Shown piece after piece: positions 30,097 through 44,816 of a stretch of 64,000 nt of DNA. The position numbers and the translations under genes are program-made. Position 1 is the first letter of the stretch, and each line of letters starts with the position of its first letter. The stretch comes from Vibrio lentus. Its GTDB lineage: Bacteria > Pseudomonadota > Gammaproteobacteria > Enterobacterales > Vibrionaceae. The DNA lies in contig NZ_JAUFQE010000001.1 in NCBI RefSeq assembly GCF_030409755.1, positions 1,116,001 to 1,180,000 of the forward strand, given 5' to 3'. The notes under the pieces are model-generated. The model was not told the DNA's origin. It made no database searches and was given only the letters and a program-made list of their open reading frames with translations.

Positions 30097-30165
30097 GCCG
30101 CTCTAAGGTAAAATAATTACAACGTCAAACTGGCCTAAATAGGCTGAAACAAGGCTAATACGACC

Positions 30166-30199
30166 AAGCCTCAACCATTAAACTGGTTGAGGCTTTTTT
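30166..30199 (+). terminator. Intrinsic terminator of the alkylsulfatase gene
   Basis: A 12-bp perfect stem (AAGCCTCAACCA/TGGTTGAGGCTT) with a 6-base loop and T-run. Confidence 0.93.
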
Positions 30200-30453
30200 G
30201 ATTTGAGCTTTATTCGATATCAAGAAAATAAAATAAGAACCCCCACTCACAGCACTCAAATAGCATTGAGTAAAACTTCTTATCAAGCCCAGAAAAACAG
30301 TACTGTGTTTGTTAAACCACACCCTTGTTTCACGGTTTCTCAATCGCAATACACATCCGTACTTTCTATATCTCAGCATGTGAAGTAGTAGAAACTTTGT
30401 GCAATCAAACTTTGTTATAAAAGTTGTCCGGACTCTTTATTCAAGGAAGGAAG

Positions 30454-31263
30454 ATGCGAAAAAAGATCATGATTACAGGTGCGACAGATGGTATCGGTTT
30501 AGAGACCGCGAAAATGTTAGCCCAACAAGGGCATCACATCCTTATCCATGGGCGTAACCCAACAAAACTCAGCAAAGTAGAAACCGGCCTTTCTCGATTA
30601 TCCAAGGATGCGACTATCGAAAGTTATGTTGCTGATCTCTCTTCTCTTTCTGAAGTTGAAGCCCTCGCCAACCAAATAACGTCGAAGCATGAACAGCTCG
30701 ATGTACTCATTAACAACGCTGGCGTCTACAAGGTTTCCGAGATCACCACCAAAGACAATCTCGATGTCCGATTTAGCGTCAACACCATTGCCCCTTATTT
30801 ACTGACTCAAAAGCTGCTACCACTTTTTGATGCCAACGGTCGCATCGTCAATCTATCTTCAGCCGCTCAGTCATCGGTCGATCTCGAGGCGCTTATCAGC
30901 CCAAATCCTGACGCTTTAGATGGCCCCATCTACGCACAAAGTAAATTAGCGTTAACGATGTGGTCAATCCATCTTGCGCACCAATTAGGAGATCAAGGCC
31001 CCCTAATCATTCCCGTTAATCCGGCCTCATTTCTTGGCAGTAAATTGGTTAAAGATGCGTATGGTTTGGAAGGTAATGACTTAGGGATTGGCGCTGATAT
31101 CTTATGCCGAGCGGCACTATCGGAAGAGTTTTCTAACGCTTCTGGGAAGTATTTTGATAATGACTCAGGGCTATTTAAAGACCCTCATGCTGATGCATTA
31201 AATTCGGATAAAAATCAGAAGCTGGTGACGACTCTCGACCAGTTGCTTGCAGAACAGCTCTAG
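30454..31263 (+). CDS. Short-chain dehydrogenase/reductase (SDR)
   Basis: About 269 residues. A Rossmann NAD(P) motif TGATDGIG lies near residue 8, the NNAG motif near 88 (NNAGVY) and the catalytic YxxxK (YAQSK) near 162, preceded by the LSSAA Ser. The following Arg-rich HGRNP after strand 2 suggests NADPH. It resembles retinol dehydrogenase-like SDRs. The ATG at 30454 has AAGGAAGGA upstream. Substrate unknown. Confidence 0.88.
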   Translation: MRKKIMITGATDGIGLETAKMLAQQGHHILIHGRNPTKLSKVETGLSRLSKDATIESYVADLSSLSEVEALANQITSKHEQLDVLINNAGVYKVSEITTKDNLDVRFSVNTIAPYLLTQKLLPLFDANGRIVNLSSAAQSSVDLEALISPNPDALDGPIYAQSKLALTMWSIHLAHQLGDQGPLIIPVNPASFLGSKLVKDAYGLEGNDLGIGADILCRAALSEEFSNASGKYFDNDSGLFKDPHADALNSDKNQKLVTTLDQLLAEQL

Positions 31264-31293
31264 CTAATGCCACGCTCACTAGTCAGATACAAT

Positions 31294-31318
31294 GAGTGCT
31301 CCGTATTTGGGAGCACTC
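31294..31318. terminator. Hairpin between convergent SDR and TetR genes
   Basis: GAGTGCTCC/GGAGCACTC stem with a 7-base loop; no T-run is visible on either side. Confidence 0.5.
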
Positions 31319-31325
31319 CATAACA

Positions 31326-31916
31326 TCAATCTGTATTCAGCGCAGCCAACAAAAATTCCGTACTTGCGCGAGCATGTTGCTCAATATCTTGTAGGTTTGG
31401 TTTGACCATCCCCATTAACACACCACTTCTTAAGCTTAATAGCATCCCCGTCCACAGAGTAACCTTCGTGGCGACATCTTCGGTATCAAACCTATCCGTG
31501 AAAAACTGAGCGAGTGCAATATCGGTTTCGTTTTCACCTACCGACATAAAGCTTTCCAAGATAGCGGGAGACTTACCGTCTTCTGCAATCAATAGCTTCA
31601 ACGTAGCGATATGTTCGTCCGACAAATGAAACGCCAAAAAGGCCGTCGCGAACCCATACAATGCCTGATAATTATCAGAGATTTTTAACTGCTCGACAGA
31701 ATGCTCATCAAACTGAGCCCCCATTTGCTGCAATGTCGCTTTGAACAACACATCTTTTGATGAGAAATATCGATAGAGCGTTTGTTTAGTCACCTGGGCT
31801 TCACTTGCGATCACATCCATGCTCGCGAGCGTAAAACCTTCAGCTAAAAAAACAGCTTTAGCCGCTTTCAAAATAGCCTGTCGTTTCTTCTCTTTATTCT
31901 GCTCAATCTTGCTCAT
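31326..31916 (-). CDS. TetR-family repressor of the divergent EamA transporter
   Basis: About 196 residues with an N-terminal helix-turn-helix: AILKAAKAVFLAEGFTLASMDVIASEAQVTKQTLYRYFSSKDVLF, followed by a hydrophobic ligand domain. The ATG at 31916 (MSKIEQ) is preferred to a GTG 12 bp upstream. Two near-identical 20-bp dyads lie in the 119-bp gap to the divergent transporter gene, so it very probably represses both promoters. Confidence 0.87.
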   Translation of the reverse strand: MSKIEQNKEKKRQAILKAAKAVFLAEGFTLASMDVIASEAQVTKQTLYRYFSSKDVLFKATLQQMGAQFDEHSVEQLKISDNYQALYGFATAFLAFHLSDEHIATLKLLIAEDGKSPAILESFMSVGENETDIALAQFFTDRFDTEDVATKVTLWTGMLLSLRSGVLMGMVKPNLQDIEQHARASTEFLLAALNTD

Positions 31917-31940
31917 TACTTCATCCACCCCAAAACAGAG

Positions 31941-32006
31941 ATCATACTTTAAAGTATGATTTGTGTTGACTCAACTAATTTTTAAAATCATACTCGTGAG
32001 TATGAT
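31941..32006. promoter_or_regulatory. Twin TetR operators
   Basis: ATCATACTT-TA-AAGTATGAT at 31941-31960 and ATCATACTC-GT-GAGTATGAT at 31987-32006 share nine-base arms differing at one position. Their centres are 46 bp apart between divergent tetR-type and EamA genes. The second copy lies about 30 bp before the transporter start. Confidence 0.85.
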
Positions 32007-32035
32007 TTATTGATAACAGATAATTGGATAGAGAA

Positions 32036-32926
32036 ATGACAACAATGAACCTCCCTAAAACTGAAGTAAGAAACACTCGAACCCTCGGCTTTACCTTTGC
32101 GATCGCAGGTGCCGTATTAATGAGTATTGACCCCATCTTTATTCGTTATGCGGGTGTCAGCGGATTTGATACGGCCTTCTTGTTCGGCTTATTCAGCGCA
32201 ATTTCGATGCCGATTTTGCTTAAATTCAACGACAAACGCGGAATACGAAAGGCAGTAGCACAAAGCGGTTGGCCATTGTTAGCAGCGGGTATTCTTATGC
32301 TCGGCAGCGCATCGGGCTTGGTGTTCAGCATCAAGATGACTTCAATCGCTAATACCTTTGTGATCCTCAGTGCAGCCCCTGCGGTTGCCGCCATTTTCAG
32401 CTGGTTAATATTGAAAGAAGCCACCAGCCGTTCGACTTTGGTTGCGATTGTGGCTGTGATGGTTGGTATTACGATTGTCGTTTCAGGCTCGTTTTCTTCG
32501 GGTAATTGGATGGGTGATGCTTTAGCGGTATTCGCTGTGATCTGTTTATCTATGATGTTTACCTTGCTGCGTAAATATCAAGACGTCAGCCGATTAGCGA
32601 GCGTTGGCCTAGGTGGCTTGTTGCTCGCGGTTGTGATGTTTTTCTTCGCAACACCATCAAGCTACAGCGTTGAAACGTGGTTAATCATGGGCATGATGGG
32701 CTTGTTTACCGCACCGGTTGGACGAGTGTTATCTATGGTCGCAACACGCCACATTACCGCACCAGAGGTATCAATGACTCTGATGTTAGAAACGGTGTTA
32801 GCGCCAGTTTGGGCGTTTGTCTTCTTCACCGAGATCCCGCCAACGACCAGTATTATCGGTGGTGTGGTGATCTTGATTACGATCTTCATCTACACCTTAG
32901 TGACGATGAAAAATGATGACAAATAA
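32036..32926 (+). CDS. EamA-family (DMT) transporter under TetR control
   Basis: About 296 residues with ten predicted helices in two EamA repeats. The first repeat contains DPIFIRYAGVSGFDTAFLFGLFS, the second GRVLSMVATRHITAPEVSMTLMLETVLAPVWAF. The ATG at 32036 is chosen over an upstream TTG; another ATG lies 9 bp later. Divergent control by a TetR protein suggests export of a toxic compound, which is inference. A TrmO-like gene follows 33 bp later. Confidence 0.87.
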   Translation: MTTMNLPKTEVRNTRTLGFTFAIAGAVLMSIDPIFIRYAGVSGFDTAFLFGLFSAISMPILLKFNDKRGIRKAVAQSGWPLLAAGILMLGSASGLVFSIKMTSIANTFVILSAAPAVAAIFSWLILKEATSRSTLVAIVAVMVGITIVVSGSFSSGNWMGDALAVFAVICLSMMFTLLRKYQDVSRLASVGLGGLLLAVVMFFFATPSSYSVETWLIMGMMGLFTAPVGRVLSMVATRHITAPEVSMTLMLETVLAPVWAFVFFTEIPPTTSIIGGVVILITIFIYTLVTMKNDDK

Positions 32927-32959
32927 AGAGACTAATAAAGAATTAAATAGGAGCTAAAC

Positions 32960-33361
32960 ATGTCTGAAGAGCTGAAATTAATTGGTCGAATTACTACGCC
33001 GTATCACTCGATTTCGGAGTGTCCGAATAACATCCAACCGGACAACGGCCCAATCTGTGAAATAATCTTAGATGACGTTTACCAACAAGGCTTGCTTGGC
33101 TTAAACCGTGGCGACCACATATTGATCTTGTATTGGTTAGAAGGCGGCAAACGAGATGAATTGATCCAAAGCCGGGATGAAGAGACACCGACCAAAGGCA
33201 CCTTCGCACTGCGCTCACCACACAGGCCAAACCCAATCGGTGCTGCCGTACTGCCGATTGAAAAAATAGAGAATGGCACAGTGACCGTAAGAGGCTTAGA
33301 TTGCTTGAACAACACACCGCTGTTGGATATCAAGCCTGCAATCTATAAAGAGAAGGGATAA
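32960..33361 (+). CDS. TrmO/TsaA-like SAM-dependent methyltransferase, single domain
   Basis: A 133-residue protein of the TsaA/YaeB fold, whose characterised member methylates N6-threonylcarbamoyladenosine-37 in tRNA. The conserved segments are IGRITTPYHS, LHSPHRPNPIG-like FALRSPHRPNPIG near 74 and LDCLNNTPLLDIKP near 113. It lacks the C-terminal domain of E. coli TrmO (about 235 residues), so the tRNA role is less certain. AGGAG precedes the ATG. It may be co-transcribed with the EamA gene. Confidence 0.82.
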   Translation: MSEELKLIGRITTPYHSISECPNNIQPDNGPICEIILDDVYQQGLLGLNRGDHILILYWLEGGKRDELIQSRDEETPTKGTFALRSPHRPNPIGAAVLPIEKIENGTVTVRGLDCLNNTPLLDIKPAIYKEKG

Positions 33362-33418
33362 GCGAGAAACTGGCCTTCCTAAACCAAGATCGAGCTGTGC
33401 GTTAGCGAAAGGAAGACA

Positions 33419-34120
33419 TTACGCATACTTGATGAAAGCTTGGCTTAACCGCTGAAAGAGTGAATCTACGTTGGGAAGGCTCGTCAAGTGCGCGGACAAC
33501 AGTGTATGAACCTGCGCATCCACCACGGTCGGGTTATCGCAAATTTGATTATAAAAATTCACAGGCGCAACGATGTTCTCCAAGTCGGCATCTAACAAGA
33601 TACAAGCTTGCGAAAGTACAATTTGGCCGCCCCCTTGTTTAAGCAATACACGCTGCGCAGTACCCACTATTTTTTGTTTATTGATATTGAGGTTGTAGTC
33701 ACCATCACAATAAGAACCGGGGGTTGCGTGTACATCCACATCGATGCCCAGTTCTTTAAAAAACAGGGTTAATACATCGCATAAATGTCGATACGCTTTT
33801 TGGATATTGTATGCTTCATCACGAGGCCAATGGTAAATGTGCGATAGGTTAATGATCCCCGGCAATTGGGGAACGGGAGCGCCACCGGTTTTTCGTGAGG
33901 TGAGTTGCCAGCCTTGTTCCGCAAGCTGCTTTCTAGACTCTACCTTCACTGGCCACTTCTTACCTGCAGGCAAAACGAGTGTCGGCGTTTTTGCTTGCCA
34001 AAGCATTAAGGCTTGCGCAATCTCACCGGTCTGTATTTGCTGCAATAACTCAGCTTCTTTTTCAAACGCACGATCAACATCAATGTGCGGGTAACGTACG
34101 AGTTTATTCGTTAACTTCAA
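33419..34120 (-). CDS. Biotin/lipoate A/B ligase-family protein (LplA-like)
   Basis: A 233-residue protein of the lipoate ligase/octanoyltransferase fold. The substrate-loop SRKTGGAPVPQLPGIINLS near 75-93 replaces the usual RRxxGGGxVxHxxG, with Pro-Gln where His is common. The catalytic-type Lys occurs in KIVGTAQR near 140. It starts at a TTG with GAGGAAA upstream. It is the last chromosomal gene before the relic integron. Whether it is an active ligase is uncertain because the key loop is altered. Confidence 0.75.
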   Translation of the reverse strand: MKLTNKLVRYPHIDVDRAFEKEAELLQQIQTGEIAQALMLWQAKTPTLVLPAGKKWPVKVESRKQLAEQGWQLTSRKTGGAPVPQLPGIINLSHIYHWPRDEAYNIQKAYRHLCDVLTLFFKELGIDVDVHATPGSYCDGDYNLNINKQKIVGTAQRVLLKQGGGQIVLSQACILLDADLENIVAPVNFYNQICDNPTVVDAQVHTLLSAHLTSLPNVDSLFQRLSQAFIKYA

Positions 34121-34199
34121 TGCACTTTTCCTCTACAGATTGTGGTGACTTAGTATTTAGCGTTCTGGGATGGTTGATGACATATGGGACTATGTGGAA

Positions 34200-34249
34200 T
34201 GAAAACAGCGCCAAAAGTTAGTTATTGGCACTATAGTCGTTTGTTAGGC
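34200..34249 (-). repeat. Degenerate attC remnant after cassette 3
   Basis: On the minus strand the R'' core GCCTAAC (34243-34249) follows the DJ-1 gene stop by a few bases and is exactly complementary to that cassette's first bases (GTTAGGC at 34866-34872), the rule for an attC and its own cassette. An inner arm pair (AGTGCCAA/TTGGCGCT) is visible. No closing GTTRRRY core is found before the lplA-like gene, so this attC, and with it the array end, is truncated. Confidence 0.6.
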
Positions 34250-34254
34250 AAAAT

Positions 34255-34851
34255 TTACAGATACGCACCGACTACTGACATACAGTGCTGAACCGTGCTT
34301 TCTTTTTCACCGACTGGCGCGACATAATGAATTGCCGATTCAGCATCCGCCCTACTCGACAACTTGCTAATTACCCAGGTAGCCAAGTACTTTGATGACA
34401 AACAACCACCTGCTGTCGCAAGATTACCTTTAGCATAAAAGGGTTGGTCTAAAACGGTAACTCCTGATTCGACAACCCAAGGTTTCGTTGTTAAATCGGT
34501 ACAAGCTGGTATTTGATGCAGTAAACCAAGTACTGACATGAGCAACGTACCTGAACATTGTCCACCAATTAACTGAGTTTCAGGGTTTAGCTTTAGCCTT
34601 GAAAGTATATCTCTGTCTTTCGCAATATCGCACGTTAGTGCACCACTGCCAAATAATACGACGTTGGCTTGGTTAGCAAACTCGAGAGGCTGTTGAGATT
34701 TGATTGTCACTCCGTTCATTGAAGTGACGTATTGAGATGGACTCGTTATTTGCACATTCCAACCGGCGTCTTTCATGCGGTTCAAAATGCCCGCAGCTAT
34801 AAATGAATCCAGTTCATTAAATCCGTTAAAAGTTAGTACAGCAATATCCAT
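34255..34851 (-). CDS. DJ-1/PfpI-family protein on integron cassette 3
   Basis: A 198-residue class I glutamine amidotransferase-like protein. The nucleophile elbow is GGQCSGT near Cys99, and the family start MDIAVLTFNGFNELD is clear. Members include chaperone/deglycase and ThiJ/PfpI hydrolases; activity here is unknown. The gene begins 15 bp after an attC core (GTTAGGC) with AGGAAT as ribosome site and ends just before a truncated attC, so it is a compact promoterless cassette. Confidence 0.85.
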   Translation of the reverse strand: MDIAVLTFNGFNELDSFIAAGILNRMKDAGWNVQITSPSQYVTSMNGVTIKSQQPLEFANQANVVLFGSGALTCDIAKDRDILSRLKLNPETQLIGGQCSGTLLMSVLGLLHQIPACTDLTTKPWVVESGVTVLDQPFYAKGNLATAGGCLSSKYLATWVISKLSSRADAESAIHYVAPVGEKESTVQHCMSVVGAYL

Positions 34852-34880
34852 ATTTATTCCTATTTGCCTAACGCCTGCAT

Positions 34881-36202
34881 CTTGCGAATCCCCTCATAAT
34901 CAGGCTTAAAAACAATGAGGTAGACGTGCATCGCCGTCTTTGATCTAATGAATATCGCTGAACACACATTTCGAACAAGTGGGTTAATAATGCGCGACAT
35001 TCAGATTCTACAACAAACCATACAAAACCAATGCCCCTCCATTCACAAAAAACGCGTTAGTTCTCTGATACTTGCTACAAAAAGTGTACTTGACGGCTCA
35101 GACTTAACGCTGACTAAACTAGGTCGCAAACTAGAAACTAATACCACGGTAAAACATGCGATCAAACGCGTTGATAGACTGCTTGGAAATCGCCAACTAC
35201 ATCGTGAAAAAGACCTTATTTATAAATGGCATGCCTACTTAATAACGGGCGCTAACCCATGCCCTGTGATCCTTGTGGATTGGTCTGATGTTCGTGAACA
35301 ACTTCGTTATATGACGTTAAGAGCATCCGTTGCACTTGATGGTCGAGCCGTCACAATCTTTGAACAAGTTTTTGAGTATGGCCAATACAATTCACCGAAA
35401 AGTCACCAAACATTCCTCGATAAATTGCAGAGTATTTTGCCGAATAAAATCAGTCCGATCATCGTTTCTGATGCGGGTTTTAGAAATACTTGGTTCCGCC
35501 AAGTTCAGGAGAAAGGTTGGTTTTGGTTAGGTCGTGTCCGAGGTGAAGTATCAATCAAACAACCTCAAAAACCTTGGGTCTCAAATAAAACCTTTTATCC
35601 AAACGCTGTCCATAAACCCAAATATCTTGGCAACTGCTTATTAGCAAAGAGATCACCGATATCTTGTGAAGCCTATGTTTATAAGGGATTAGAAAAAGGC
35701 CGAAAAGCCCAGCGCCATAGTAGAACCAGCCAAAAACACTCCGCTACACATCTCTATCAACGCAGTGCAAAGGAGCCGTGGCTACTCGCGACTAATGTCC
35801 CTCGACATATCTTAAATGAAGTACAAATTACCAATCTGTACGCCAAGCGTATGCAGATAGAAGAAGCCTTCCGCGATCTAAAGAGTACCGCCTATGGGAT
35901 CGCACTTCGTCACAACAGAACTCGCTGTACTAAGCGATTAGATATCCTGCTTCTTATTGCGTTGCTCGCTGAAATCTTGATGTGGTGGAATGGCCTAATT
36001 GCAGTACAAGCCAAATGGCATTTTGACTTCCAAGCCAACAGCATTAAACACCGCCGAGTTCTATCCATACCTCGTCTAGGGAGAGAGGTACGAAATCATC
36101 GGCGATATCAAATTAATGAATCCCAATATCAATGGGGAATGTTCGAATATCAAAGGCTCACACACAACGCAGGACTAGGGAAATTATGAGGGGATCCGTC
36201 AG
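34881..36202 (+). mobile_element. IS10-group (IS4 family) insertion sequence, apparently intact
   Basis: 1,322 bp. Terminal inverted repeats are CTTGCGAATCCCCTCATAAT on the left and the complement of CTGACGGATCCCCTCATAAT on the right; 17 of 20 positions agree and the inner part equals the IS10 end. A 9-bp target duplication, CGCCTGCAT, flanks it at 34872-34880 and 36203-36211. The insertion splits an integron attC site. One full-length transposase gene is inside. Confidence 0.95.
34990..36189 (+). CDS. IS10-type DDE transposase
   Basis: A 399-residue transposase close in length to that of IS10 (402). DDE residues are visible: Asp in VDWSDVREQ near 99, Asp in VSDAGFRNTW near 162 and Glu in the YREK-type region RMQIEEAFRDLKS near 290. 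It carries out cut-and-paste transposition. The start MRDIQIL matches the IS10 N-terminus; an upstream in-frame ATG at 34948 would be less natural. It ends 13 bp before the IS end with the IS10-like tail GLGKL. No frameshift is seen. Confidence 0.95.
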   Translation: MRDIQILQQTIQNQCPSIHKKRVSSLILATKSVLDGSDLTLTKLGRKLETNTTVKHAIKRVDRLLGNRQLHREKDLIYKWHAYLITGANPCPVILVDWSDVREQLRYMTLRASVALDGRAVTIFEQVFEYGQYNSPKSHQTFLDKLQSILPNKISPIIVSDAGFRNTWFRQVQEKGWFWLGRVRGEVSIKQPQKPWVSNKTFYPNAVHKPKYLGNCLLAKRSPISCEAYVYKGLEKGRKAQRHSRTSQKHSATHLYQRSAKEPWLLATNVPRHILNEVQITNLYAKRMQIEEAFRDLKSTAYGIALRHNRTRCTKRLDILLLIALLAEILMWWNGLIAVQAKWHFDFQANSIKHRRVLSIPRLGREVRNHRRYQINESQYQWGMFEYQRLTHNAGLGKL

Positions 36203-36324
36203 CGCCTGCATAACACATTTACTACTATGCAATTATACTTAATATTGACACCTTAAAACGAGAAACACTCGGCAAACTGAGATTGCCGAGTGTAGTAAAT
36301 CGTGTTAATGCATTTGTTAGTAGC
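36203..36324 (-). repeat. attC2 integron site, split by the IS10-type element
   Basis: Minus strand, from R'' GCTACTAAC (36316-36324) to R' GTTAGGC, which now lies at 34866-34872 on the far side of the IS. Removing the IS and one target copy gives a folded attC: TGCATTAACACGATTTACTAC on one arm pairs with TGCATAACACATTTACTAC on the other, with only one T and one G left unpaired, the extrahelical bases typical of attC. The centre holds the hairpin CACTCGGCAA/TTGCCGAGTG. Confidence 0.88.
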
Positions 36325-36327
36325 ATA

Positions 36328-37068
36328 CTATAAGTCTGCTTGGATACTTTCTAGTGAAACCACTCGAGACATTAGTACTTTCAGATCTGCGGCCAAATGA
36401 AAGTCCAGATCATTTTGAATAAAATTTATCATATCAGGAATATCAGCATCATTTTTCACGAAAATGTATTTTACATCTTTTGGTGAAAACTTTAATGCTG
36501 CATGTTCTTTCGTTTCGGCATTGGCAACTTGGAGTAATTCTAAGTCGTCAAACTTGGCCTTTGTCAAATAAGCTTCAATATTTTCATTTTTTGGTACATA
36601 GCGCCACTCAGACTCTTGATAAAACTCTTTTTCCACCGGCTTTCCATCAACAATCATGTTGCCATCTGATGGCTTGATATGCATGTATAGATATCGCATC
36701 GTTTCTTTGGCCGCAGTAATTTCATCTTTTTCAGAACAACGATGAGCATGGTGATTTAATGCTCTAGTTTCAGCCATTAAGTTATTATCTGAAGCTAGAT
36801 ATAAAATCGGGTTTAAACCATTAGCATTCGCCCATTCTTTAGTCATACCTAAACCATAATAACCGTAAAATCCAACATGTTCTGAAATTCGGCTTAGTGG
36901 AATATCACAAAAACACACCATAGGAAATGCCATATAATCAGCATCATCCTGATTCACCCATCGAATATCTTCTAAACAGTACCTTGGCCAGAAACCATTT
37001 TTAAACACTAGTTTTAGAGTTTCTTTTGTTTGAGTAAAGTGAAACAAAGTATGTGACTTTGGAGCCAT
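36328..37068 (-). CDS. AbiGi-like abortive infection antitoxin-family protein on cassette 2
   Basis: A 246-residue cytoplasmic protein. Features recalled from the AbiGi antitoxin family (a putative abortive phage resistance component) are LFHFTQTKETLKLVFKNGFWPRYCLEDI at residues 8-35 and FPMVCFCDIPLSRISEHVGFYGYYGLGMTKEW near 48-79. The ATG has GAGGTAAC upstream, 33 bp after the cassette start. No AbiGii-type toxin gene is next to it, so it may act alone or as an orphan. The assignment is from memory of the family pattern and needs a profile search. Confidence 0.6.
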   Translation of the reverse strand: MAPKSHTLFHFTQTKETLKLVFKNGFWPRYCLEDIRWVNQDDADYMAFPMVCFCDIPLSRISEHVGFYGYYGLGMTKEWANANGLNPILYLASDNNLMAETRALNHHAHRCSEKDEITAAKETMRYLYMHIKPSDGNMIVDGKPVEKEFYQESEWRYVPKNENIEAYLTKAKFDDLELLQVANAETKEHAALKFSPKDVKYIFVKNDADIPDMINFIQNDLDFHLAADLKVLMSRVVSLESIQADL

Positions 37069-37108
37069 TTTGTTACCTCATAATTTTATTTGTTTGGAAG
37101 CTACTAAC

Positions 37109-37439
37109 GAATGACATGGATTCTCCCCTACCGAGGATCTGCCACACTTATGTGGTACTTAAATGCATCGGGAGTGGCACAAACACCGACGGCGTTAGGA
37201 CGGCAATATAGCTTCGGCTGTATTGAACCACGAGCATAGACTGAAGACAGGTGCCACGACGGAACAAGTAAGGTAGGCTCTACTCATCAAACGATGAGCA
37301 ATCCACGTATATCAGCATGAGAACCGACGACATTACTTGCTTCATCTATGCGGTAACACTATCCCCTAAGCAACAAGAAAAGCTCTGATAATACAGGAGA
37401 GAAACTTCTATGTTTTTAATTGACAGTGGGGGTCATATC
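37109..37439 (+). ncRNA. 331-bp structured-RNA element inserted at the attC1 core
   Basis: Flanked by AAC on both sides (37106-37108 and 37440-37442), with imperfect terminal inversions GAATGAC and GTCATATC. Paired segments nest: CCTACC (37127-37132) with GGTAGG (37272-37277); inside it the hairpin GCCACA-CTTA-TGTGGT (37141-37156) and GTGGCAC (37174-37180) with GTGCCAC (37251-37257); inside that CAATATAGC-TTCG-GCTGTATTG (37204-37225), a C(UUCG)G tetraloop. A hairpin CTCATC-AAAC-GATGAG follows (37283-37298). The canonical tetraloop favours plus-strand RNA, opposite to the cassettes. A GGAG and ATG (37410) near its end open a short frame that runs into the attC. No group II intron domain V or known class recognised. 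Confidence 0.5.
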
Positions 37440-37559
37440 AACGCCAAATTAAGCTGCCAAAAACGCACACACGTAGTTTATGAAAACCACCGTAAACACG
37501 GTGCTCAATGCAAACTGAAAATGCCATGCGGTTTTGGTCTGCTTGAATTTTTTGTTAGC
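37440..37559 (-). repeat. attC1 integron site, split at its core
   Basis: Minus strand from R'' AGCTAAC (37553-37559), which overlaps the stop codon of the DUF4145-like gene, to TTAATTTGGCGTT. The arms AAATTCAAGCAGACC and GGCAGCTTAATTT are largely complementary with single unpaired bases. With the 331-bp insert removed the end reads TTTGGCGTTAGTAGC, a normal Vibrio-type attC terminus. R'' is the exact complement of the cassette's own first bases (GTTAGCT at 38197-38203). Confidence 0.82.
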
Positions 37560-38172
37560 TTTTTCTACTCTTAAAACGCTCAAATTTTGGACGTATATCA
37601 TAGATTAACTCCAATATCGCATCTAAGAAATCCAGCCCATCTTCTACATCTGACGCTTGAAATAAAATATCATTTGCGTGCGCTCCTTGATTTCTAAGTA
37701 AACGTAACTCTGTCGCCCATTCGTACATTTCTGAACTCAACACACCGTCAGATTTCATTTTATTCAGGCCAGTGTAGATAGTTTTCGCATTAGAATCATA
37801 ATCAATGCACGTTGCTTCCAATGCCCTACCGATCATCACACTAGCAGCTAAATACAAGTTACTTTCAATTGATGCTACAGCTTCAGCCCTTGATAATTGA
37901 ACTTGCTGCGGAACAGCAAAACCTAGCCCCTTGCTATCTTTATTTGGCCAAATTTTTTGTTTTTCGTATATTCCATCAGGTTTGAACTGCACAAAAAACT
38001 CAGGATCTTCACGGTAAAATAGAGCTGGAGTACCACAAATCGAGCAATGACAAAAAGTATATTCTTCAGGTGAACCTTCATACTTATCTACATAGTTATA
38101 TTCGTAAATAGTTTTAAAAATCACAGTTGCCTCGCAAGTCAGACAAACGTCCGTTAAATCTAAATCATCCAT
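37555..38172 (-). CDS. DUF4145-like protein on integron cassette 1
   Basis: About 205 residues. An N-terminal zinc-ribbon pair (CLTC near residue 10; CHCSIC near 42) precedes the DUF4145-type helical part, with EAVASIESNLYLAASVMIGRALEATCIDY and the terminal LRLLRNQGAHAND motif followed by DAILELIY. Such domains often accompany restriction or defence genes, but the biochemical role is unknown. The ATG at 38172 with GGTGG upstream is chosen because the cassette itself starts at 38202; longer frames would begin in attI. Confidence 0.75.
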   Translation of the reverse strand: MDDLDLTDVCLTCEATVIFKTIYEYNYVDKYEGSPEEYTFCHCSICGTPALFYREDPEFFVQFKPDGIYEKQKIWPNKDSKGLGFAVPQQVQLSRAEAVASIESNLYLAASVMIGRALEATCIDYDSNAKTIYTGLNKMKSDGVLSSEMYEWATELRLLRNQGAHANDILFQASDVEDGLDFLDAILELIYDIRPKFERFKSRKS

Positions 38173-38196
38173 TTTTCCACCAAGTTTCGAATGAAA

Positions 38197-38484
38197 AGCT
38201 AACATTTTGATATCGTGCAAGCACGAATCCATCCGCTTAACATATCAAAAAGGTCGCTCATAACCAACTGAATGCTATGCATTTAATATAAAGTGGGTCT
38301 AAACATTAAGTGTGAAAACGTGCAAGCACATATTGTCGACTATGTAACGCTCGGCCTCACTCTTAACCACTCACAAATCTTCAAATTAATCAACAACTTA
38401 AAACAAACCTCTCGTTAAATTCGTGCTCAATCAGAGTTAAAAACCACTCTTTTTTAAGTCATTAATTATTCAACAAGCAATAAA
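38197..38484. other. attI-like region and first cassette junction
   Basis: The cassette 1 core on the minus strand is GTTAGCT at 38203-38197. To its right lies non-coding DNA up to the integrase relic, the place of attI and of the cassette promoter Pc. It contains the inverted repeat CGTGC-AA-GCACG (about 38215) and a second core-like GTTAAGC (38241-38235). Exact attI limits cannot be set from sequence alone. Confidence 0.6.
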
Positions 38485-38500
38485 CTGTCTGTATGTACAG
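38485..38500. promoter_or_regulatory. LexA (SOS) box of the integrase relic
   Basis: CTGTCTGTATGTACAG fits CTGT-N8-ACAG exactly and ends 18 bp before the integrase ATG. Integron integrase promoters are known to be under LexA control, so this is a preserved SOS element. Confidence 0.8.
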
Positions 38501-38518
38501 ATTTTGTGAGGGGGATAT

Positions 38519-38907
38519 ATGGCGAGTCAATTCATGCAGGCAATTTGCGAACATATGACGATGCGAGGCTATAGTCGCAAGGCAATCAAAGCCTACTGTT
38601 ATTGGATTAAGTACTACATTCATTTTCATAAGCTTAAACACCCTGAACAAATGCATGCCGCTGAAGTTGTCTCCTTTCTTTCTCATTTAGCTAATCAACA
38701 AAAAGTCGCCATCAATACTCAAAAGGTTGCCCTCAATGCTCTAGCCTATCTGTACAATCAATTTATAAACAACTTCTAAAGTCAGGCTCCGATATCAGAA
38801 CGGTTCAAGAGCAACTGGGGCACAGTGATGTTAAGACAACTCAGATATACACTCACGTTATTGGGCAACACTTTAGTGGCACGACTAGCCCGCTAGACGG
38901 CCTATAA
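38519..38907 (+). pseudogene. intI: Chromosomal integron integrase with a large internal deletion
   Basis: The first 84 codons (SQFMQAICEHMTMRGYSRKAIKAY..., then KYYIHFHKLKHPEQM) match the N-terminal SAM-like domain of Vibrio IntIA as I recall it, up to YNQFINN, where a stop appears at 38777. Two bases out of phase, from 38773, the C-terminal end resumes: [28 protein letters not shown] and SPLDGL, stop at 38907. It keeps the nucleophile Tyr in QIYTH but has lost about 190 residues with the catalytic Arg, Lys, HxxR and the IntI-specific insert. It cannot be active. It reads away from the cassettes, as in functional chromosomal integrons. Confidence 0.92.
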
Positions 38908-39015
38908 CGAAACTCCCTCATCGATAGTTGAACCTTGGCTTGATGGCTTCTGTCTAGCAAAGTTGTCTGATATGGTGACGGCAGAACTTCAGCAATTGTT
39001 TAGATAGTATTGAAT

Positions 39016-39921
39016 ATGAAAACACTAACCATACTTGATGGCGGCATGGGCCGAGAACTCAAAGAAATTGGCGCGCCATTTTCTCAACCGCTTTGGAGTG
39101 CTCAAGCGCTGATTGAAGCACCCGAATTTGTCAGCCAAGCGCATCAAAACTTTGTCGATGCTGGTGCTGAAATCCTGATCACCAATAGCTATGCCTGTGT
39201 ACCTTTTCACTTGGGTGAAGAGCTATTCAAACAACAAGGTTTTGAACTAGCCGCACTGTCTGGTGAGCTGGCTAAAGCGGCTGCCGACAATGCTTCCCAT
39301 ACAGTGAAAGTAGCGGGCGCGATTCCACCGCCATTTGGCAGCTACCGACCTGACTTATTCAAAGTAGAAGCAGCGGCACCAATCATCCAAACCCTTTACG
39401 ATGCACAAGACCCAAACATCGACCTTTGGATCGCGGAAACGATCTGTAGCCTGCAAGAATTCGAATCCATTCATGCGGTACTCAAGCAATCAAACAAACC
39501 GTGTTATTACGCATTCAGTTTGGAAGACACCACGGGCGATTCAGCCAACATTCGTTCTGGCGAAAGCGTAACAGACGCCATCAAACTGGCTTGCCAATCC
39601 AACGCGACAGGTATCATGTTTAACTGCTCTGTGCCTGAAGTGATGGATCAAGCCATCATCGATGCTAAAAAAGTAATTGAAGAGCTAGGCAGTGATTTAG
39701 AAATTGGGGTCTATGCCAATAACTTTGCGCCGATCAGCAATGAACATGAAGCCAATGACATGCTTCAAGAGATGCGTGAGCTGGATGGCCAAGGTTACCT
39801 AGTTTACGCAAAACGCTGGCACGCACTTGGCGCGAATATTATCGGTGGCTGTTGTGGCATCGGGCCGAAACACATTAGAGCTTTGGCGGACTGGAAATTA
39901 AGAGACGTTGAGCCAAACTAA
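39016..39921 (+). CDS. Homocysteine S-methyltransferase-family protein
   Basis: A 301-residue methyltransferase of the MmuM/BHMT type, which makes methionine from homocysteine with S-methylmethionine or a betaine as donor. The start LTILDGGMGRELKEIGAPF is typical. The three zinc-binding cysteines are in FNCSVPE near 206 and GGCCGIGPKH near 282. The ATG at 39016 is chosen over an in-frame TTG 6 bp earlier. The methyl donor is not determined. Confidence 0.88.
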   Translation: MKTLTILDGGMGRELKEIGAPFSQPLWSAQALIEAPEFVSQAHQNFVDAGAEILITNSYACVPFHLGEELFKQQGFELAALSGELAKAAADNASHTVKVAGAIPPPFGSYRPDLFKVEAAAPIIQTLYDAQDPNIDLWIAETICSLQEFESIHAVLKQSNKPCYYAFSLEDTTGDSANIRSGESVTDAIKLACQSNATGIMFNCSVPEVMDQAIIDAKKVIEELGSDLEIGVYANNFAPISNEHEANDMLQEMRELDGQGYLVYAKRWHALGANIIGGCCGIGPKHIRALADWKLRDVEPN

Positions 39922-39984
39922 TTATTCGTGTTGTTGATAACATCGCACCACTTAAACTCAATTTATAAATCAAACGGTTAAAGC

Positions 39985-40383
39985 ATGAAACTACTTCTAA
40001 AGAGCTCAATACTGTCTCTATGCGTTCTATCATTCCATAGTTTTGCGAGTTCGCAGTGTGAAGACTTATCCGGCTGTGAAAGAAAGAGCTGTGAAATCGA
40101 GTATCAAATAGACAAAGCAAAGGAATACGGCAATCAACACAAAGTTGATGGCTTAACCAAAGCACTGAAAGAAGTGAAAGCTAACTGCACCAATGACGGC
40201 TTGAAAGACAAAATCGCTGAAAAAATAGAATCGAGTGAAGAAGATCTCGCAGAATACCGAGAAGATCTCGAAGAAGCGAAACAGTCTGGTAAGACTCAGA
40301 AGGTGAAAAAGTACCAACGTAAAATCGAAGACGAAATTGCAGAACGTGACCGTTTAGTGAAAGAGCTGGCTGAGATCCAATAA
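39985..40383 (+). CDS. Periplasmic DUF1090-family protein (YqjC-like)
   Basis: A 132-residue exported protein with signal peptide ending SFAS, four cysteines in CEDLSGCERKSCEIEYQI and one in ANC, then a highly charged alpha-helical, coiled-coil-like C-terminal half (ESSEEDLAEYREDLEEAKQ...). This matches the DUF1090/YqjC pattern. Function unknown. A strong terminator follows. Confidence 0.82.
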   Translation: MKLLLKSSILSLCVLSFHSFASSQCEDLSGCERKSCEIEYQIDKAKEYGNQHKVDGLTKALKEVKANCTNDGLKDKIAEKIESSEEDLAEYREDLEEAKQSGKTQKVKKYQRKIEDEIAERDRLVKELAEIQ

Positions 40384-40477
40384 GCATCGCGACGCTACAT
40401 TGATACGTCTACTTTATACTTGTCAGCCTAGCTTCACGCACCTGCTTCGCTTGTCTACTTAAGCAAACTTCAAATCT

Positions 40478-40508
40478 ATCGCCTCTCAATTCGAGAGGCG
40501 ATTTTCTT
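40478..40508 (+). terminator. Intrinsic terminator after the DUF1090 gene
   Basis: ATCGCCTCTC/GAGAGGCGAT, 5-base loop, then TTTTCTTT. It can also face the convergent HDOD gene. Confidence 0.88.
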
Positions 40509-40528
40509 TATCTCTTAGTCAGATTCAC

Positions 40529-41623
40529 CTAATCAACAAGCGCTAGCTCGGACTCTTTCAGTAAACGATTAGCCACGAGGTTGGCGGCAGGCGTAGCTAT
40601 CGTTTGTTGGCATCTGGTTTCAAAATTTTCAGCCGTAATCATTTTGACTTCCAGCAGATATTGCAGCTCACTTAAGTAGTTCGCCTCAAACACCGCTTGC
40701 CCAAGTGGTGTACATTCGTATCGACTCGATTCTTGGTAACCAATCGCGGTCAGTACAGATTCTGGCAGCTCCCAAAACTTAGCAATGGTGTATGTCAGAC
40801 GAATAGAATAGCTGTTCATCAATCGCTTCAATGCCAACGAGTTAGGCGGCACTGAAGGGTCAACATGCTTAAATGCTTCCACCATCATCTGGAAAATGAT
40901 CATCTTGCCCAAGTTACGAATCAACCCAACAAAGTATGCCGCGGCTTGATCTTCTTGGGATGAAGAGCCTTTCATCAACTCCTTAGAAAAAGAGGCGGTT
41001 TGGACACTGTGATTCCAAATTTTCTCACCGAAATGACGCCAGTAAATATTGTTGCCCGGCGTGAAGTTCTTCATGTAGCTATTCACTACCCCTTCTACAA
41101 GCCCTTGAGAACCCATATTTAGAAATGCTGTTTTTAGGTCAGTAACCTGTTTTTCACCACGCTTATAGAAAGCACTGTTAGCCAGTTTTATCACATCGGC
41201 AGCCATGCTTGGCTCGCGTTCAATCACTTTTAGCAATGCATCGACATCAAATTCGTCACTCTGTAATTCGGCCATTAACGTGGTCACAGAGGCTGGCATC
41301 ACTGGCAGTTCATTAAGCAAAGCTTTTGGAGAGCGAATCAAGCGCTCGATTTGGCAGGCGACAAAATCGCTAAACGGGTCTGACTCCGTTCTCAGACGGG
41401 ATTCGCCAAACAGATAATCAAGAAACTCACCATCGTGAAGGCTTATTACTTTATCGACAATGAGTGATGATGGCTGGACGGACGAAGGCGGAACAAAGAT
41501 TGAAGACTGAACAGAATCAGTAGCAACGGTTTGTTGTTGCTCTTTTTGGACAGGCTCTGCAGAGGGTTTGTTTTTTGAATCAACAAAAGGCGAAAATAGT
41601 GCCTGCAATACCCTTTTAAACAT
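40529..41623 (-). CDS. HDOD-domain signalling protein
   Basis: A 364-residue cytoplasmic protein. After a low-complexity Gln/Ser-rich linker (residues 15-60) comes an HDOD domain from about 110 to 300, with LPVMPASVTTLMAELQSDEFDVDALLKVIEREPSMAADVIKLANSAFY and FVGLIRNLGKMIIFQMM. HDOD domains lack the catalytic His-Asp pair and act as adaptors, often near c-di-GMP or chemotaxis proteins. The ATG at 41623 (MFKRVLQ) is preferred to an upstream frame. Confidence 0.85.
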   Translation of the reverse strand: MFKRVLQALFSPFVDSKNKPSAEPVQKEQQQTVATDSVQSSIFVPPSSVQPSSLIVDKVISLHDGEFLDYLFGESRLRTESDPFSDFVACQIERLIRSPKALLNELPVMPASVTTLMAELQSDEFDVDALLKVIEREPSMAADVIKLANSAFYKRGEKQVTDLKTAFLNMGSQGLVEGVVNSYMKNFTPGNNIYWRHFGEKIWNHSVQTASFSKELMKGSSSQEDQAAAYFVGLIRNLGKMIIFQMMVEAFKHVDPSVPPNSLALKRLMNSYSIRLTYTIAKFWELPESVLTAIGYQESSRYECTPLGQAVFEANYLSELQYLLEVKMITAENFETRCQQTIATPAANLVANRLLKESELALVD

Positions 41624-41796
41624 CAATACGGCTCCTAGATGAATACAACATAGATCGGGATATAGAACGGCGGCGATTATCGCACACACAATTCATAAAC
41701 CATACAATGATAAATGAATCACTTATTTCTTCGCTGTATAGGATCTGTTACTCGGCAGAAGACAAGACTAGGCTCGCCTGTATTGGCCAGAAACAA

Positions 41797-41829
41797 AAAG
41801 AGTGAGCAAATAACGCTTGCTCACTCTTT
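41797..41829 (-). terminator. Intrinsic terminator of the oxidoreductase operon
   Basis: AAAGAGTGAGCAA/TTGCTCACTCTTT, 7-base loop, with a T-run on the minus strand. It closes the TetR-oxidoreductase operon. Confidence 0.9.
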
Positions 41830-41859
41830 CGCAGATTTGAATCGTGAAGCTGACTAAAA

Positions 41860-42915
41860 CTAGCGCTTAGCAACTTCCAGTACGATCTTACCGACGTGCT
41901 TTTTCTTCAAGAATTCATCTTGTGCTGTATGAATACCTGCCAATGGGAACGACTCCGCGACAATCGCGACAATCTGCTGTTTCTCAATTCGGTTAACCAA
42001 GCTTTGGAACACTTCAGGCTCTAGCACTGTACAACCAAAAAAGCTAAGGTCTTTGAGATACAGAGTACGCACATCAAGCTCAACCATAGCTCCACCAATC
42101 GCGCCTGATACGGCATAACGACCGTGTGGTTTCAGCACTTCAAGGAATTCCGGCCACTTATCACCGGCGACTAAGTCGATAACTACATTCACACTGTTTG
42201 TGCTTAAAGCCTCAACTAAATCAGCATCACGAGCAATCACCTCATCAGCACCCAGTTCCAATAACTGCTGGTTTTTGCTTGGGCTAGTAATCGCAATCAC
42301 GTAAGCACCGCGAGCTTTCGCCAGTTGAATCGCCGCCGAGCCCACGCCACCTGATGCGCCAGAGATAAGCACGCGATCACCTTCAGCCACATTAGCGCGA
42401 GTCAGCATGTTCTCTGCTGTTGAGTAAGAACATGGGAATGACGCTAGCTCAACATCCGACATTGTGCTGTTCACCGCATAAGCATGTTTCGCTGCGACTT
42501 TGGTGTATTCAGCAAAGCCACCATCGCACTCAGAACCGAAATACCATGGTTGTGGTAAATCTCGTCCGCACACTTCAGTCAGACAAGGTTCGATAAGAAC
42601 ACGCTCACCAATACGATCAGCAGAGACTTCATTGCCGACTGCCACGATAAAACCACACACGTCAGCACCTTGAATACGAGGGAACTTCAACGCTTCACCC
42701 GACCAACTTGCGTCGTCTGAGTCATCACTTTTAGAGTACCAACCGATTCGTGTGTTGATGTCGGTGTTGTTCACGCCTGCGGCCATCACCTTGATCAGCA
42801 CTTCATTAGGTTCAATTTGAGGAACCGCGATATCTTCACGGTAGCCAAGCATGTCTGCTCCGCCGTGACCCAACATCTCTACGCCTTTCATTGTTTTCGG
42901 TAGTTCGAATTTCAT
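41860..42915 (-). CDS. Zinc-type alcohol dehydrogenase-like (MDR) oxidoreductase
   Basis: A 351-residue medium-chain dehydrogenase/reductase. The GroES-like N-terminal half contains GVNNTDINTRIGWYS and GADVCGFIVAVG; the Rossmann half has the NAD(P) motif GASGGVGSAAIQLAKARGAYVIAI near 178-201. It resembles quinone/alkenal reductase-type members. Its start overlaps the end of the TetR gene by 4 bp, so translation is coupled in one operon. Confidence 0.85.
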   Translation of the reverse strand: MKFELPKTMKGVEMLGHGGADMLGYREDIAVPQIEPNEVLIKVMAAGVNNTDINTRIGWYSKSDDSDDASWSGEALKFPRIQGADVCGFIVAVGNEVSADRIGERVLIEPCLTEVCGRDLPQPWYFGSECDGGFAEYTKVAAKHAYAVNSTMSDVELASFPCSYSTAENMLTRANVAEGDRVLISGASGGVGSAAIQLAKARGAYVIAITSPSKNQQLLELGADEVIARDADLVEALSTNSVNVVIDLVAGDKWPEFLEVLKPHGRYAVSGAIGGAMVELDVRTLYLKDLSFFGCTVLEPEVFQSLVNRIEKQQIVAIVAESFPLAGIHTAQDEFLKKKHVGKIVLEVAKR

Positions 42916-43430
42916 CGTGTTTCCTTGAGTAATTTTGTCACCATATTCTGTGCTGATGTCACCGCTTCTTCGCCTAATACTGGCCACGCGCTTGATACAC
43001 CTTCATGAAGTAGAAAAAGCTCTGAAGCCAGATCGTCTCGTTGACTCTGCTTACCCAGAAGTGCTTTTACTTCTCGTTTATGTTCAGTAACAGCTTGATT
43101 AATTATCTCGTTGTCAGGAAAAGCCGCCATCGCATTCATCGACATACAACCGTGTGGTGCATACTCTTTCATCCACTGTTGTAACTTGTCGAAGATATCA
43201 AGCATGGATGCTAGGCCATCATCAGGCGCACTCTCCAATAGGAAATTTAGGTAACGGTGATGACGGTGCTCTAAGGCGCCCACGATCATCGCTTCTTTCG
43301 ATGGGTAATGCTTATACAGCGTGCGAAGGCTGACATTACACGCCGTCTTTAGCTGAGCCACACTCGGCTCTGCAAAACCATATTGACTAAACGCAACCTC
43401 AAGGCTCTCTGCAATTTGTTCTCTTAACAT
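42912..43430 (-). CDS. TetR-family regulator of the oxidoreductase operon
   Basis: A 172-residue regulator with helix-turn-helix AEPSVAQLKTACNVSLRTLYKHYPSKEAMIVGAL near residues 20-53. It overlaps the oxidoreductase gene by 4 bp. Two tandem GTAGAR-N6-TTCTAC operators lie 26-68 bp upstream of its start, so it is almost certainly autoregulated and controls the oxidoreductase. Confidence 0.9.
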   Translation of the reverse strand: MLREQIAESLEVAFSQYGFAEPSVAQLKTACNVSLRTLYKHYPSKEAMIVGALEHRHHRYLNFLLESAPDDGLASMLDIFDKLQQWMKEYAPHGCMSMNAMAAFPDNEIINQAVTEHKREVKALLGKQSQRDDLASELFLLHEGVSSAWPVLGEEAVTSAQNMVTKLLKETR

Positions 43431-43455
43431 GCGGATCTCTTATACCTGACTAAAG

Positions 43456-43498
43456 GTAGAATGATTGTTCTACACATATGGTAGAGCGATCATTCTAC
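43456..43498. promoter_or_regulatory. Tandem TetR operators
   Basis: GTAGAA-N6-TTCTAC at 43456-43473 and GTAGAG-N6-TTCTAC at 43481-43498, centres 25 bp apart. The outer arms also form GTAGAATGAT/ATCATTCTAC. Confidence 0.82.
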
Positions 43499-43532
43499 TC
43501 ATGTCAATATCCAAATTTACGAAGGGATAAAA

Positions 43533-43570
43533 TGATAAATCCCGCATCAAATAAGACGCGGAATTTATCA
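43533..43570 (-). terminator. Long hairpin after the MFS gene
   Basis: A 13-bp stem TGATAAATCCCGC/GCGGAATTTATCA with one mismatch and a 12-base loop, between the MFS stop and the TetR promoter; the minus-strand tail is T-rich. Confidence 0.65.
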
Positions 43571-43597
43571 ATATGAATGAGAGACTTACCGTTAAAT

Positions 43598-44722
43598 CTA
43601 GAGTCGGCTGCGTATCGTCACCAACACAGATAACACACCACAAAATACCAACACCACACCTAAGTCTTGAATCATTCCCGCTAAAGCGAGCCCTGAACCA
43701 ATCAAGGTGTAATACATCAAACCAAACAGTGCACCTGTGCTTCCAGCTTGAGATTGGTAACGCACCAATGCTCGGCTCAAGACATTAGGAATCGCAATAC
43801 CGAATGCCATAACCACCAACATCATCGGAAGCAAGAACCAGATCGTGTGTTGTAAAAAGTACACACCCACTGCGCCTACCGTTTGAAGCCCTGCCGCTAA
43901 GCTAATCAAAGAGATAGATGAAACTTGTCGCTTCAATAGCGCCTTATTAACCAAGCTTCCCAACAAGGTTCCGAACCCAAGCACGACTCCACTATAACCA
44001 AACTGCTCGATACCGAATCCAAGCTGTAAGAAGGTGAATGAACCCAGTTGGTAATACGAAAACAGCGCAATATTGAACGACGCGACAAGCAGTGCCGATA
44101 GCCAAATATCGCCGTCTTTGATCATGTGGATACTGAGCGATTTTAATTGCAACGGCTGCTTAGACTGCTGCGTTTCCGGCAAAGACCATAAACTGTGTAC
44201 TAGCAGCGCCAACACCATGATTAACAAGGCAGTAAACACATATTGATGCCCACCCGCCTTGCTCAATTGGCCACCTAGTAATAACCCGATGATTGGGCTA
44301 ATCGACAGCCCCATGCCCATGTAACCAAACACCTTGGCCAACTCACTACCACTAAAGGCATCTCGTAATATGGTTTGGGTGACGACAGAGCCAACCGCAA
44401 GCCCGAAAGCGCCCATCGCTCTTGCTATCATCAACCACGTAAAGCTATTGGTTTGCATAGCAATGAGTGCCGAACAGGCGAATAGCCCCATACCCAATAA
44501 CATGGTAGGGCGACGTCCCCATTTATCCGCTAACACGCCCCATACCACCACACCCAACGCAAACGCTGAAAAGTAGATCGAGAGGGTTTGTGCCGCTTGT
44601 GTGTAACTCACATCAAAGGATTTCGATATAGAATCCAGAGTCGGGCTATAGATGGTTTCTGCGATTTGAGGGAACATCAACAGCAGTACCATTTGCCATA
44701 AAGAAGGTTTTGTTTTCATCAT
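43598..44722 (-). CDS. MFS drug-efflux transporter (Bcr/CflA-like)
   Basis: A 374-residue, 12-helix transporter. The first-loop MFS motif ADKWGRRPTMLLGMG occurs near residue 57, and IARAMGAFGLAVGSVVTQTILRD near 95 is typical of Bcr/CflA multidrug exporters. The start MMKTKPSLW is chosen because the first helix begins there; longer frames run into the divergent gene. It is divergent to an AraC-type regulator, its probable activator. Confidence 0.88.
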   Translation of the reverse strand: MMKTKPSLWQMVLLLMFPQIAETIYSPTLDSISKSFDVSYTQAAQTLSIYFSAFALGVVVWGVLADKWGRRPTMLLGMGLFACSALIAMQTNSFTWLMIARAMGAFGLAVGSVVTQTILRDAFSGSELAKVFGYMGMGLSISPIIGLLLGGQLSKAGGHQYVFTALLIMVLALLVHSLWSLPETQQSKQPLQLKSLSIHMIKDGDIWLSALLVASFNIALFSYYQLGSFTFLQLGFGIEQFGYSGVVLGFGTLLGSLVNKALLKRQVSSISLISLAAGLQTVGAVGVYFLQHTIWFLLPMMLVVMAFGIAIPNVLSRALVRYQSQAGSTGALFGLMYYTLIGSGLALAGMIQDLGVVLVFCGVLSVLVTIRSRL

Positions 44723-44816
44723 TTTTCCAAGACCAGTGAACTTGACGGGAAGTCTAGAGGAAACTAACCTTGGCTCGTTAACAACATTAAAACCAAAAAC
44801 AACAAGATTGAGACAA

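Follow-up and report, generated by a model that had tools for sequence, protein, structure and literature searches.

An insert in a Vibrio lentus integron cassette array that is very probably a deletion scar of two attC-targeting insertion sequences

The DNA analysed here (the window, to which all coordinates refer) is a stretch of 64,000 nucleotides from Vibrio lentus. It contains a 331-bp insert (37109..37439) with AAC on both flanks. We consider it highly probable, from comparison with related sequences, that this insert is the scar of a deletion between two insertion sequences (ISs) of the IS1111 type that target attC; IS-A contributed the left end, and IS-B the guide-RNA region together with the right end. 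The fusion has been observed once, and its parents are of a kind that is already published, i.e. attC-targeting IS1111 ISs with guide RNAs; such elements were reportedly the subject of papers in 2008 and 2009. An initial annotation of this DNA had seen in the insert an unnamed structured RNA element lying in the core of an attC site. Two of its points stand, namely the encoding of a structured RNA and the origin of the DNA from a mobile element that targets attC, but a self-standing RNA element is not supported, because the two halves are ends of IS110-family elements. What looked like a new class of RNA becomes a worked example of RNA-guided ISs accumulating and decaying in integron cassette arrays.

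The insert is made of two IS ends

The boundaries originally assigned to the insert hold; in the window sequence it is bounded by ...GCTACTAAC on the left and AACGCC on the right. Its 331 bp are fully explained by two IS ends. One, the left end of IS-A (37109..37171, + strand), is identical at 61 of 63 positions, with one gap, to a 1362-bp copy of that element (L037). It comprises a 7-bp extension GAATGAC, the subterminal inverted repeat starting at 37116, and the leader until just before the start of the transposase. The remainder (37162..37439, + strand) is the non-coding (guide-RNA) region and right end of IS-B, identical at 274 of 278 positions to the copy in genome G083 (L080). It finishes with the right subterminal inverted repeat GTGGGGGTCAT and the 3-bp end ATC (37426..37439, + strand), as seen on comparing flanks and ends. 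The subterminal repeats of the insert are consequently mismatched, ATGGATTC... on the left coming from IS-A and ...GGGGGTCAT on the right from IS-B. Homology to IS fragments, which the initial annotation had counted as a sign against its RNA element, is thus what was found, both halves being IS110-family ends.

Within the overlap of the two alignments lies the 7-bp sequence GCATCGG (37165..37171, + strand), common to IS-A and IS-B, that we take to be the deletion junction. Its IS-A copy lies in the leader, immediately ahead of the transposase start; its IS-B copy follows the stop codon of the transposase gene by about 30 bp. The junction is therefore outside both transposase genes, so that both have been lost, and no transposase sequence was found within 37109-37439.

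The parent elements

Full-length IS-A is 1362 bp and IS-B is 1562-1563 bp. Three full copies of IS-A are present elsewhere in the window's genome; no other match to IS-B was found there using a query that lacked the first 49 bp of that element. As expected of DEDD transposases with a Transposase_20 domain, the submitted transposase sequences of IS-A (341 aa) and IS-B (384 aa) each contain PF01548 and PF02371; each also scores over the cut-off of the NCBIfam model NF033542 ('IS110 family RNA-guided transposase'). They are 25% identical to each other (79/310). The transposase frame of IS-B is open in genome G030, encoding 388 aa, and broken in the G083 copy (L080/L055).

Subterminal inverted repeats were found in both elements. 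The IS ends were set from these by a rule of 7 bp on the left and 3 bp on the right, so the 7/3 spacing is no independent test of the assignment. We take the right inset to be 3 bp for both IS-A and IS-B. The 7-bp left inset is that of IS1111-type elements (PMC11187229). Placed in this way (and using a slash to denote each junction), the ends of IS-A are ...AAC/GAATGAC-ATGGATTC ... GAATCCAT-GTA/GCC in three of three full copies in the window's genome, and those of IS-B are .../AGACATA-ATGACCCCC (or ATGACTCCC) ... -ATC or -ACC/AAC.

Both ISs have a non-coding region 3′ to the transposase gene, the structure of which we examined in IS-B. A position downstream of the transposase gene is that of the guide RNA in IS1111-type elements (PMC11187229; PMC11208160), and IS1111 elements that target attC have been published together with their guide RNAs (PMC11187229). 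The parents share with this IS1111-attC group (ISKpn4, ISPst6 and ISPa25, whose names and attC targets are given in PMC11187229) the transposase family, the subterminal repeats, the downstream non-coding region and insertion at one end of attC. Unlike those ISs, the window copy lacks a transposase and has its ends from two different elements.

A blastn search of plasmids with the insert plus its flanks returned 16 records, from Vibrio (7), Pseudoalteromonas (4), Alteromonas (2), Salinivibrio (2) and Klebsiella (1), part of which matched the left end or flank only. In the Klebsiella and Pseudoalteromonas stretches the homolog is directly 3′ to an annotated IS110-family transposase gene, and in those of Alteromonas and V. 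halioticoli the alignment covers most or all of IS-B. The stretch from Vibrio sp. THAF190c (L003) has the non-coding tail alone. We note that the Klebsiella relative of IS-B (L001, 3713-5191) adjoins arr-3, qacEdelta1 and sul1 on an NDM-1 IncC plasmid; by inference from these neighbours it lies in a class 1 integron.

Flanking sequences and positions of insertion

The right flank of IS-B begins with AAC in all 28 rows with a printed right flank, the window included. By contrast, the left flank ends with AAC in none of the 20 usable rows, reading cat in 12, tat in five, and tct, act and gct in one each. These counts take one row for each distinct combination of motifs found, by which copies with unusual ends are missed, and they exclude one row in the reverse orientation (L060) together with rows of unrelated motif hits. 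Exceptions to the rule occur outside the counted rows; L060/L082 has GCC in place of AACGCC, and L003 reads ATC/ACGCC.

In the window, the left flank GCTACTAAC (37100..37108, − strand) is the start (i.e. the core side) of the next cassette, as it would be left by insertion of IS-A, copies of which are elsewhere preceded by ...AAC. The right flank AACGCC, as left by insertion of IS-B, belongs to a stretch (37440..37558, − strand) that recurs in other genomes of the genus and that is labelled, from its position and recurrence, as the attC of the first cassette. IS-A leaves AAC on the left and IS-B leaves AAC on the right, so an insert formed from both is flanked by AAC twice. Two ISs entering the attC core three bases apart will, when fused through their outer ends, leave AAC on each side. 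In another genome a single IS-B-type mini copy (L011) is itself flanked twice by AAC, so that a double AAC by itself is no proof of two insertions.

The insertion had initially been placed exactly at the G/TT recombination point. With the ends assigned by the rule, the entry point on the cassette strand is one base before this cut for IS-A and two bases past it for IS-B. Were both ISs to lie in one attC, the order on the + strand would be IS-B followed by IS-A, so two attC sites and a deletion provide the simplest explanation. The sequences on either side of the insert are most readily interpreted as coming from two separate attC sites, one half of each. Removal of the insert does restore an attC-like end, as had been pointed out, but this does not establish that a single site was split.

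The presence of GTT on both sides of the segment, on the cassette strand, is what could suggest a gene cassette with an unusual end, having a G/TT core triplet at either end and mobilized by the integrase of the integron. This was an alternative raised by the initial annotation, and we find it scarcely credible. Both halves are IS ends that between them explain all 331 bp, and the adjacent integrase gene is broken. The two IS ends cover 37109-37439 fully, and leave no attC of its own that would mark the segment as an integron cassette.

Structure of the guide-RNA region

The IS-B part of the insert contains a predicted seekRNA/bridge-RNA core (37174..37257, + strand), based upon an alignment of 27 sequences and counts of base pairs. 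Like the seekRNA or bridge RNA of the IS110 family, this is a predicted stem-loop, of 84 nt, with two candidate segments for the two sides of the target; peak seekRNAs of 82, 82, 86 and 96 nt have been reported for IS1111-type elements (PMC11187229). Unlike an intact seekRNA or bridge RNA, the predicted copy in the window is an orphan, lying beside a left end that does not match it. The core is closed by the helix GTGGCAC/GTGCCAC (37174-37180 with 37251-37257) and includes a UUCG hairpin (37204-37225). After the core, the non-coding region of IS-B has another structured domain (37262..37346, + strand), which includes a covarying hairpin at 37282-37299. The closing helix and both hairpins had been identified correctly at the outset. 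The RNA fold z-score is −2.84 for 37170-37262 (one of 200 shuffles was as good) and −2.02 for 37262-37346 (six of 200).

Covariation was analysed over 37170-37340 for six helices. From 36 distinct non-coding sequences, seven that were truncated or diverged in the aligned stretch were left out to give 29; omission of L040 and L041 (the same as L039 in the aligned stretch) left 27 rows, of which 26 are distinct, with the window standing for L109. Pairing occurs in 94.4% of helix cells, compared with 28.8-45.2% when the partners are slid by 1-3 columns, although the structure was drawn from the window and the consensus of related rows, both of which bias the result in its favour. Two-sided changes were found in 13 of 35 pairs, and none of 500 shuffles matched the observed values on any of five measures. 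The support comes mainly from the hairpins at 37204-37225 (six of nine pairs) and 37282-37299 (five of seven). A lack of covariation had been regarded beforehand as a sign against the proposed helices; the hairpins do covary. The closing helix pairs in 96.7% of cells with zero two-sided changes, so it is conserved but not proven by covariation. In a check of single sequences (leaving out L064) the first hairpin failed to fold in one relative, L047.

Two other features of the initial annotation are not borne out. The helix CCTACC/GGTAGG is spurious; its arms belong to different ISs, CCTACC to IS-A and GGTAGG to IS-B, so that it spans the point of fusion, and in relatives of IS-B five of the six bases of GGTAGG find their partners inside their own domain. 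The GGAG-ATG proposed as the end of the element is not general either, since among the 36 extracted sequences ATG is found in three (the window, L065 and L003) and ACG in 16, with the motif not found in 17.

The structure is conserved and partly covarying, and it has no match in Rfam up to E=1 in 30000-45000, in keeping with the earlier failure to relate it to group II introns, omega-RNA or other RNA classes. This much would be expected if the insert were a novel structured RNA that stands alone and has attC as its target. We regard that interpretation as exceedingly unlikely, however, because the structure belongs to whole ISs; essentially the whole of IS-B is aligned by 21 of the 42 locus entries compared, where the sequences of L002 and L064 overlap and four places were counted twice in the 42. 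Promoter-like sites number zero in 36950-37600, against a mean of 1.5 in shuffles, and thus lend no support to expression of the orphan RNA.

Guide segments and target junctions

Predicted guide segment 1 (GGCGTTA, 37191..37197, + strand) is complementary to the right flank of IS-B, AACGCC. Predicted guide segment 2 (GCATAGAC, 37234..37241, + strand) has the same sense as the left junction of IS-B, GCAT/AGAC. In raw counts, guide 2 agrees with the last three bases of the left flank in 13 of 20 copies of IS-B, and with the last four in six of 20. The left junction of the window, CTAAC/GAATGAC, is not matched by the retained guide segment 2. The non-coding region of IS-A itself contains CTAACGAAT once, and this matches the window left junction CTAAC/GAAT.

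In the Klebsiella relative (L001) the guide is ATCTAGAC and the junction is ATCT/AGAC, so ATCT replaces GCAT in both. Such a joint change of guide and junction is what the published guide-RNA model would lead one to expect. It was seen in this one relative, and a Pseudoalteromonas copy (L004), with guide ACAT and flank AACT, does not fit.

Proposed origin of the insert and its mobility

The source of both halves, the 7-bp junction, the loss of the transposases and the fact that the two ISs sit differently with respect to AAC can be read directly from the DNA. In the scheme that we propose, IS-A and IS-B would formerly have occupied two attC sites of one array in the same orientation. A deletion via GCATCGG would have removed the transposase and right end of IS-A, the intervening cassettes (if any), and the left end and transposase of IS-B. 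According to the published model, the RNA of an intact IS-B would bind the transposase, pair with the attC target and direct insertion. The RNA in the window would now be an orphan, and an element whose ends do not match would no longer be expected to move itself. Given the mismatched ends, the lack of a transposase and a guide that fits one side only, we predict that the window element is probably immobile.

A possible precursor type for such a deletion is seen in G030, where IS-A (1150 bp, and itself shortened) is followed about 650 bp on by IS-B in the same orientation. Such ISs have undergone internal deletion in other places too; both IS-A and IS-B are present as deleted copies in G228, and the window's genome has the IS-A pieces 104-415 and 952-1362 side by side. 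The listed matches from 227 genomes showed neither an undeleted precursor nor an empty site at this locus. Searches with the neighbouring cassettes gave matches in 33 and 97 of the 227 genomes, the window's own included; beyond the latter, the matches listed are attC-sized or short pieces only.

When used as a query against 61 genomes the insert splits into two blocks (about 1-63 and 54-331), and in no genome other than the window's own do they fall in one match. The matches listed from 227 genomes of the genus give the same picture, with up to three candidates scored per genome and matches sorted by E-value. A second copy of the fusion was thus found neither in the 61 genomes nor among the matches listed for the 227. 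The exact junction pattern gave zero hits in genome contigs, in a search that accepts exact matches only and may have excluded the window's own genome.

As a rival explanation, the insert could be a MITE-like mini-IS that has hybrid ends and its own guide RNA but no transposase, and that is mobilized in trans by another IS110-family transposase. The counts just given speak against this, as does the failure of guide segment 2 to match the left junction in the window. Moreover its left and right subterminal repeats come from different ISs whose transposases are 25% identical. Action in trans is nevertheless known, in that the RNA of ISEc11 acts in trans and a mini-IS has been assayed with transposase and seekRNA supplied separately (PMC11187229). 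Full copies of IS-A are available in the window's genome, and mini copies of the same family that lack the transposase and keep the guide region exist (L010 and L011), one of them with a second copy elsewhere. On balance we judge a mobile mini-IS to be very unlikely, and favour the deletion scar.

Transposase-less copies in other genomes

The IS-B-family mini-IS L011 (1328-1769, G012:C3), from a different genome of this genus, is transposase-less, with its left end, guide-RNA region and right end all kept. A second copy in the same genome (L129, G012:C1:1051-1335) has the same deletion junction with a different left flank, and is cut on its 3′ side; the two are identical at 257 of 286 positions (90%). 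The G012 copies may possibly be an RNA-guided MITE, and duplication of the array instead of transposition may explain the second copy. In L010 (1501-1991, G004) most of the transposase gene is gone, the guide region is kept and the left repeat has decayed. In L021 (1317-1671, G037), which belongs to another family, most of the transposase gene is likewise gone and the guide core is lost. L010 and L021 each occur once as a whole in their own genome.

A broader proposal would make transposase-less IS1111-type mini-elements with their own guide RNA a recurrent class, mobilized in trans (RNA-guided MITEs), in the integrons of this genus; the window fusion would then be a member with hybrid ends, and its orphan guide might be used in trans by an incoming transposase of the IS-B type. 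We think this unlikely. Among the records listed in the literature on IS110/IS1111 guide RNAs, attC and MITEs, titles and abstract openings describe no transposase-less IS110 element carrying a guide RNA.

The surrounding cassette array

The first cassette carries a gene with a DUF4145 domain (37555..38232, − strand), assigned by domain match. On the other side of the insert is a cassette gene related to AbiGi (36328..37068, − strand), which matches PF10899 (AbiGi) with E 9.3e-30 and scores below the NCBIfam cut-off for AbiGI; it is possibly an anti-phage cassette. The integron integrase gene (38519-38907) is broken, with an 86-aa N-terminal fragment corresponding to positions 1-80 of 315 in TIGR02249, so reshuffling of the array by that integrase is not expected. 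About 10 bp past the fragment is what we take, reading by eye, to be the C-terminal end of a tyrosine recombinase. A 413-aa DDE transposase (PF01609) is encoded at 34948-36189, adjoining the second attC of this short array.
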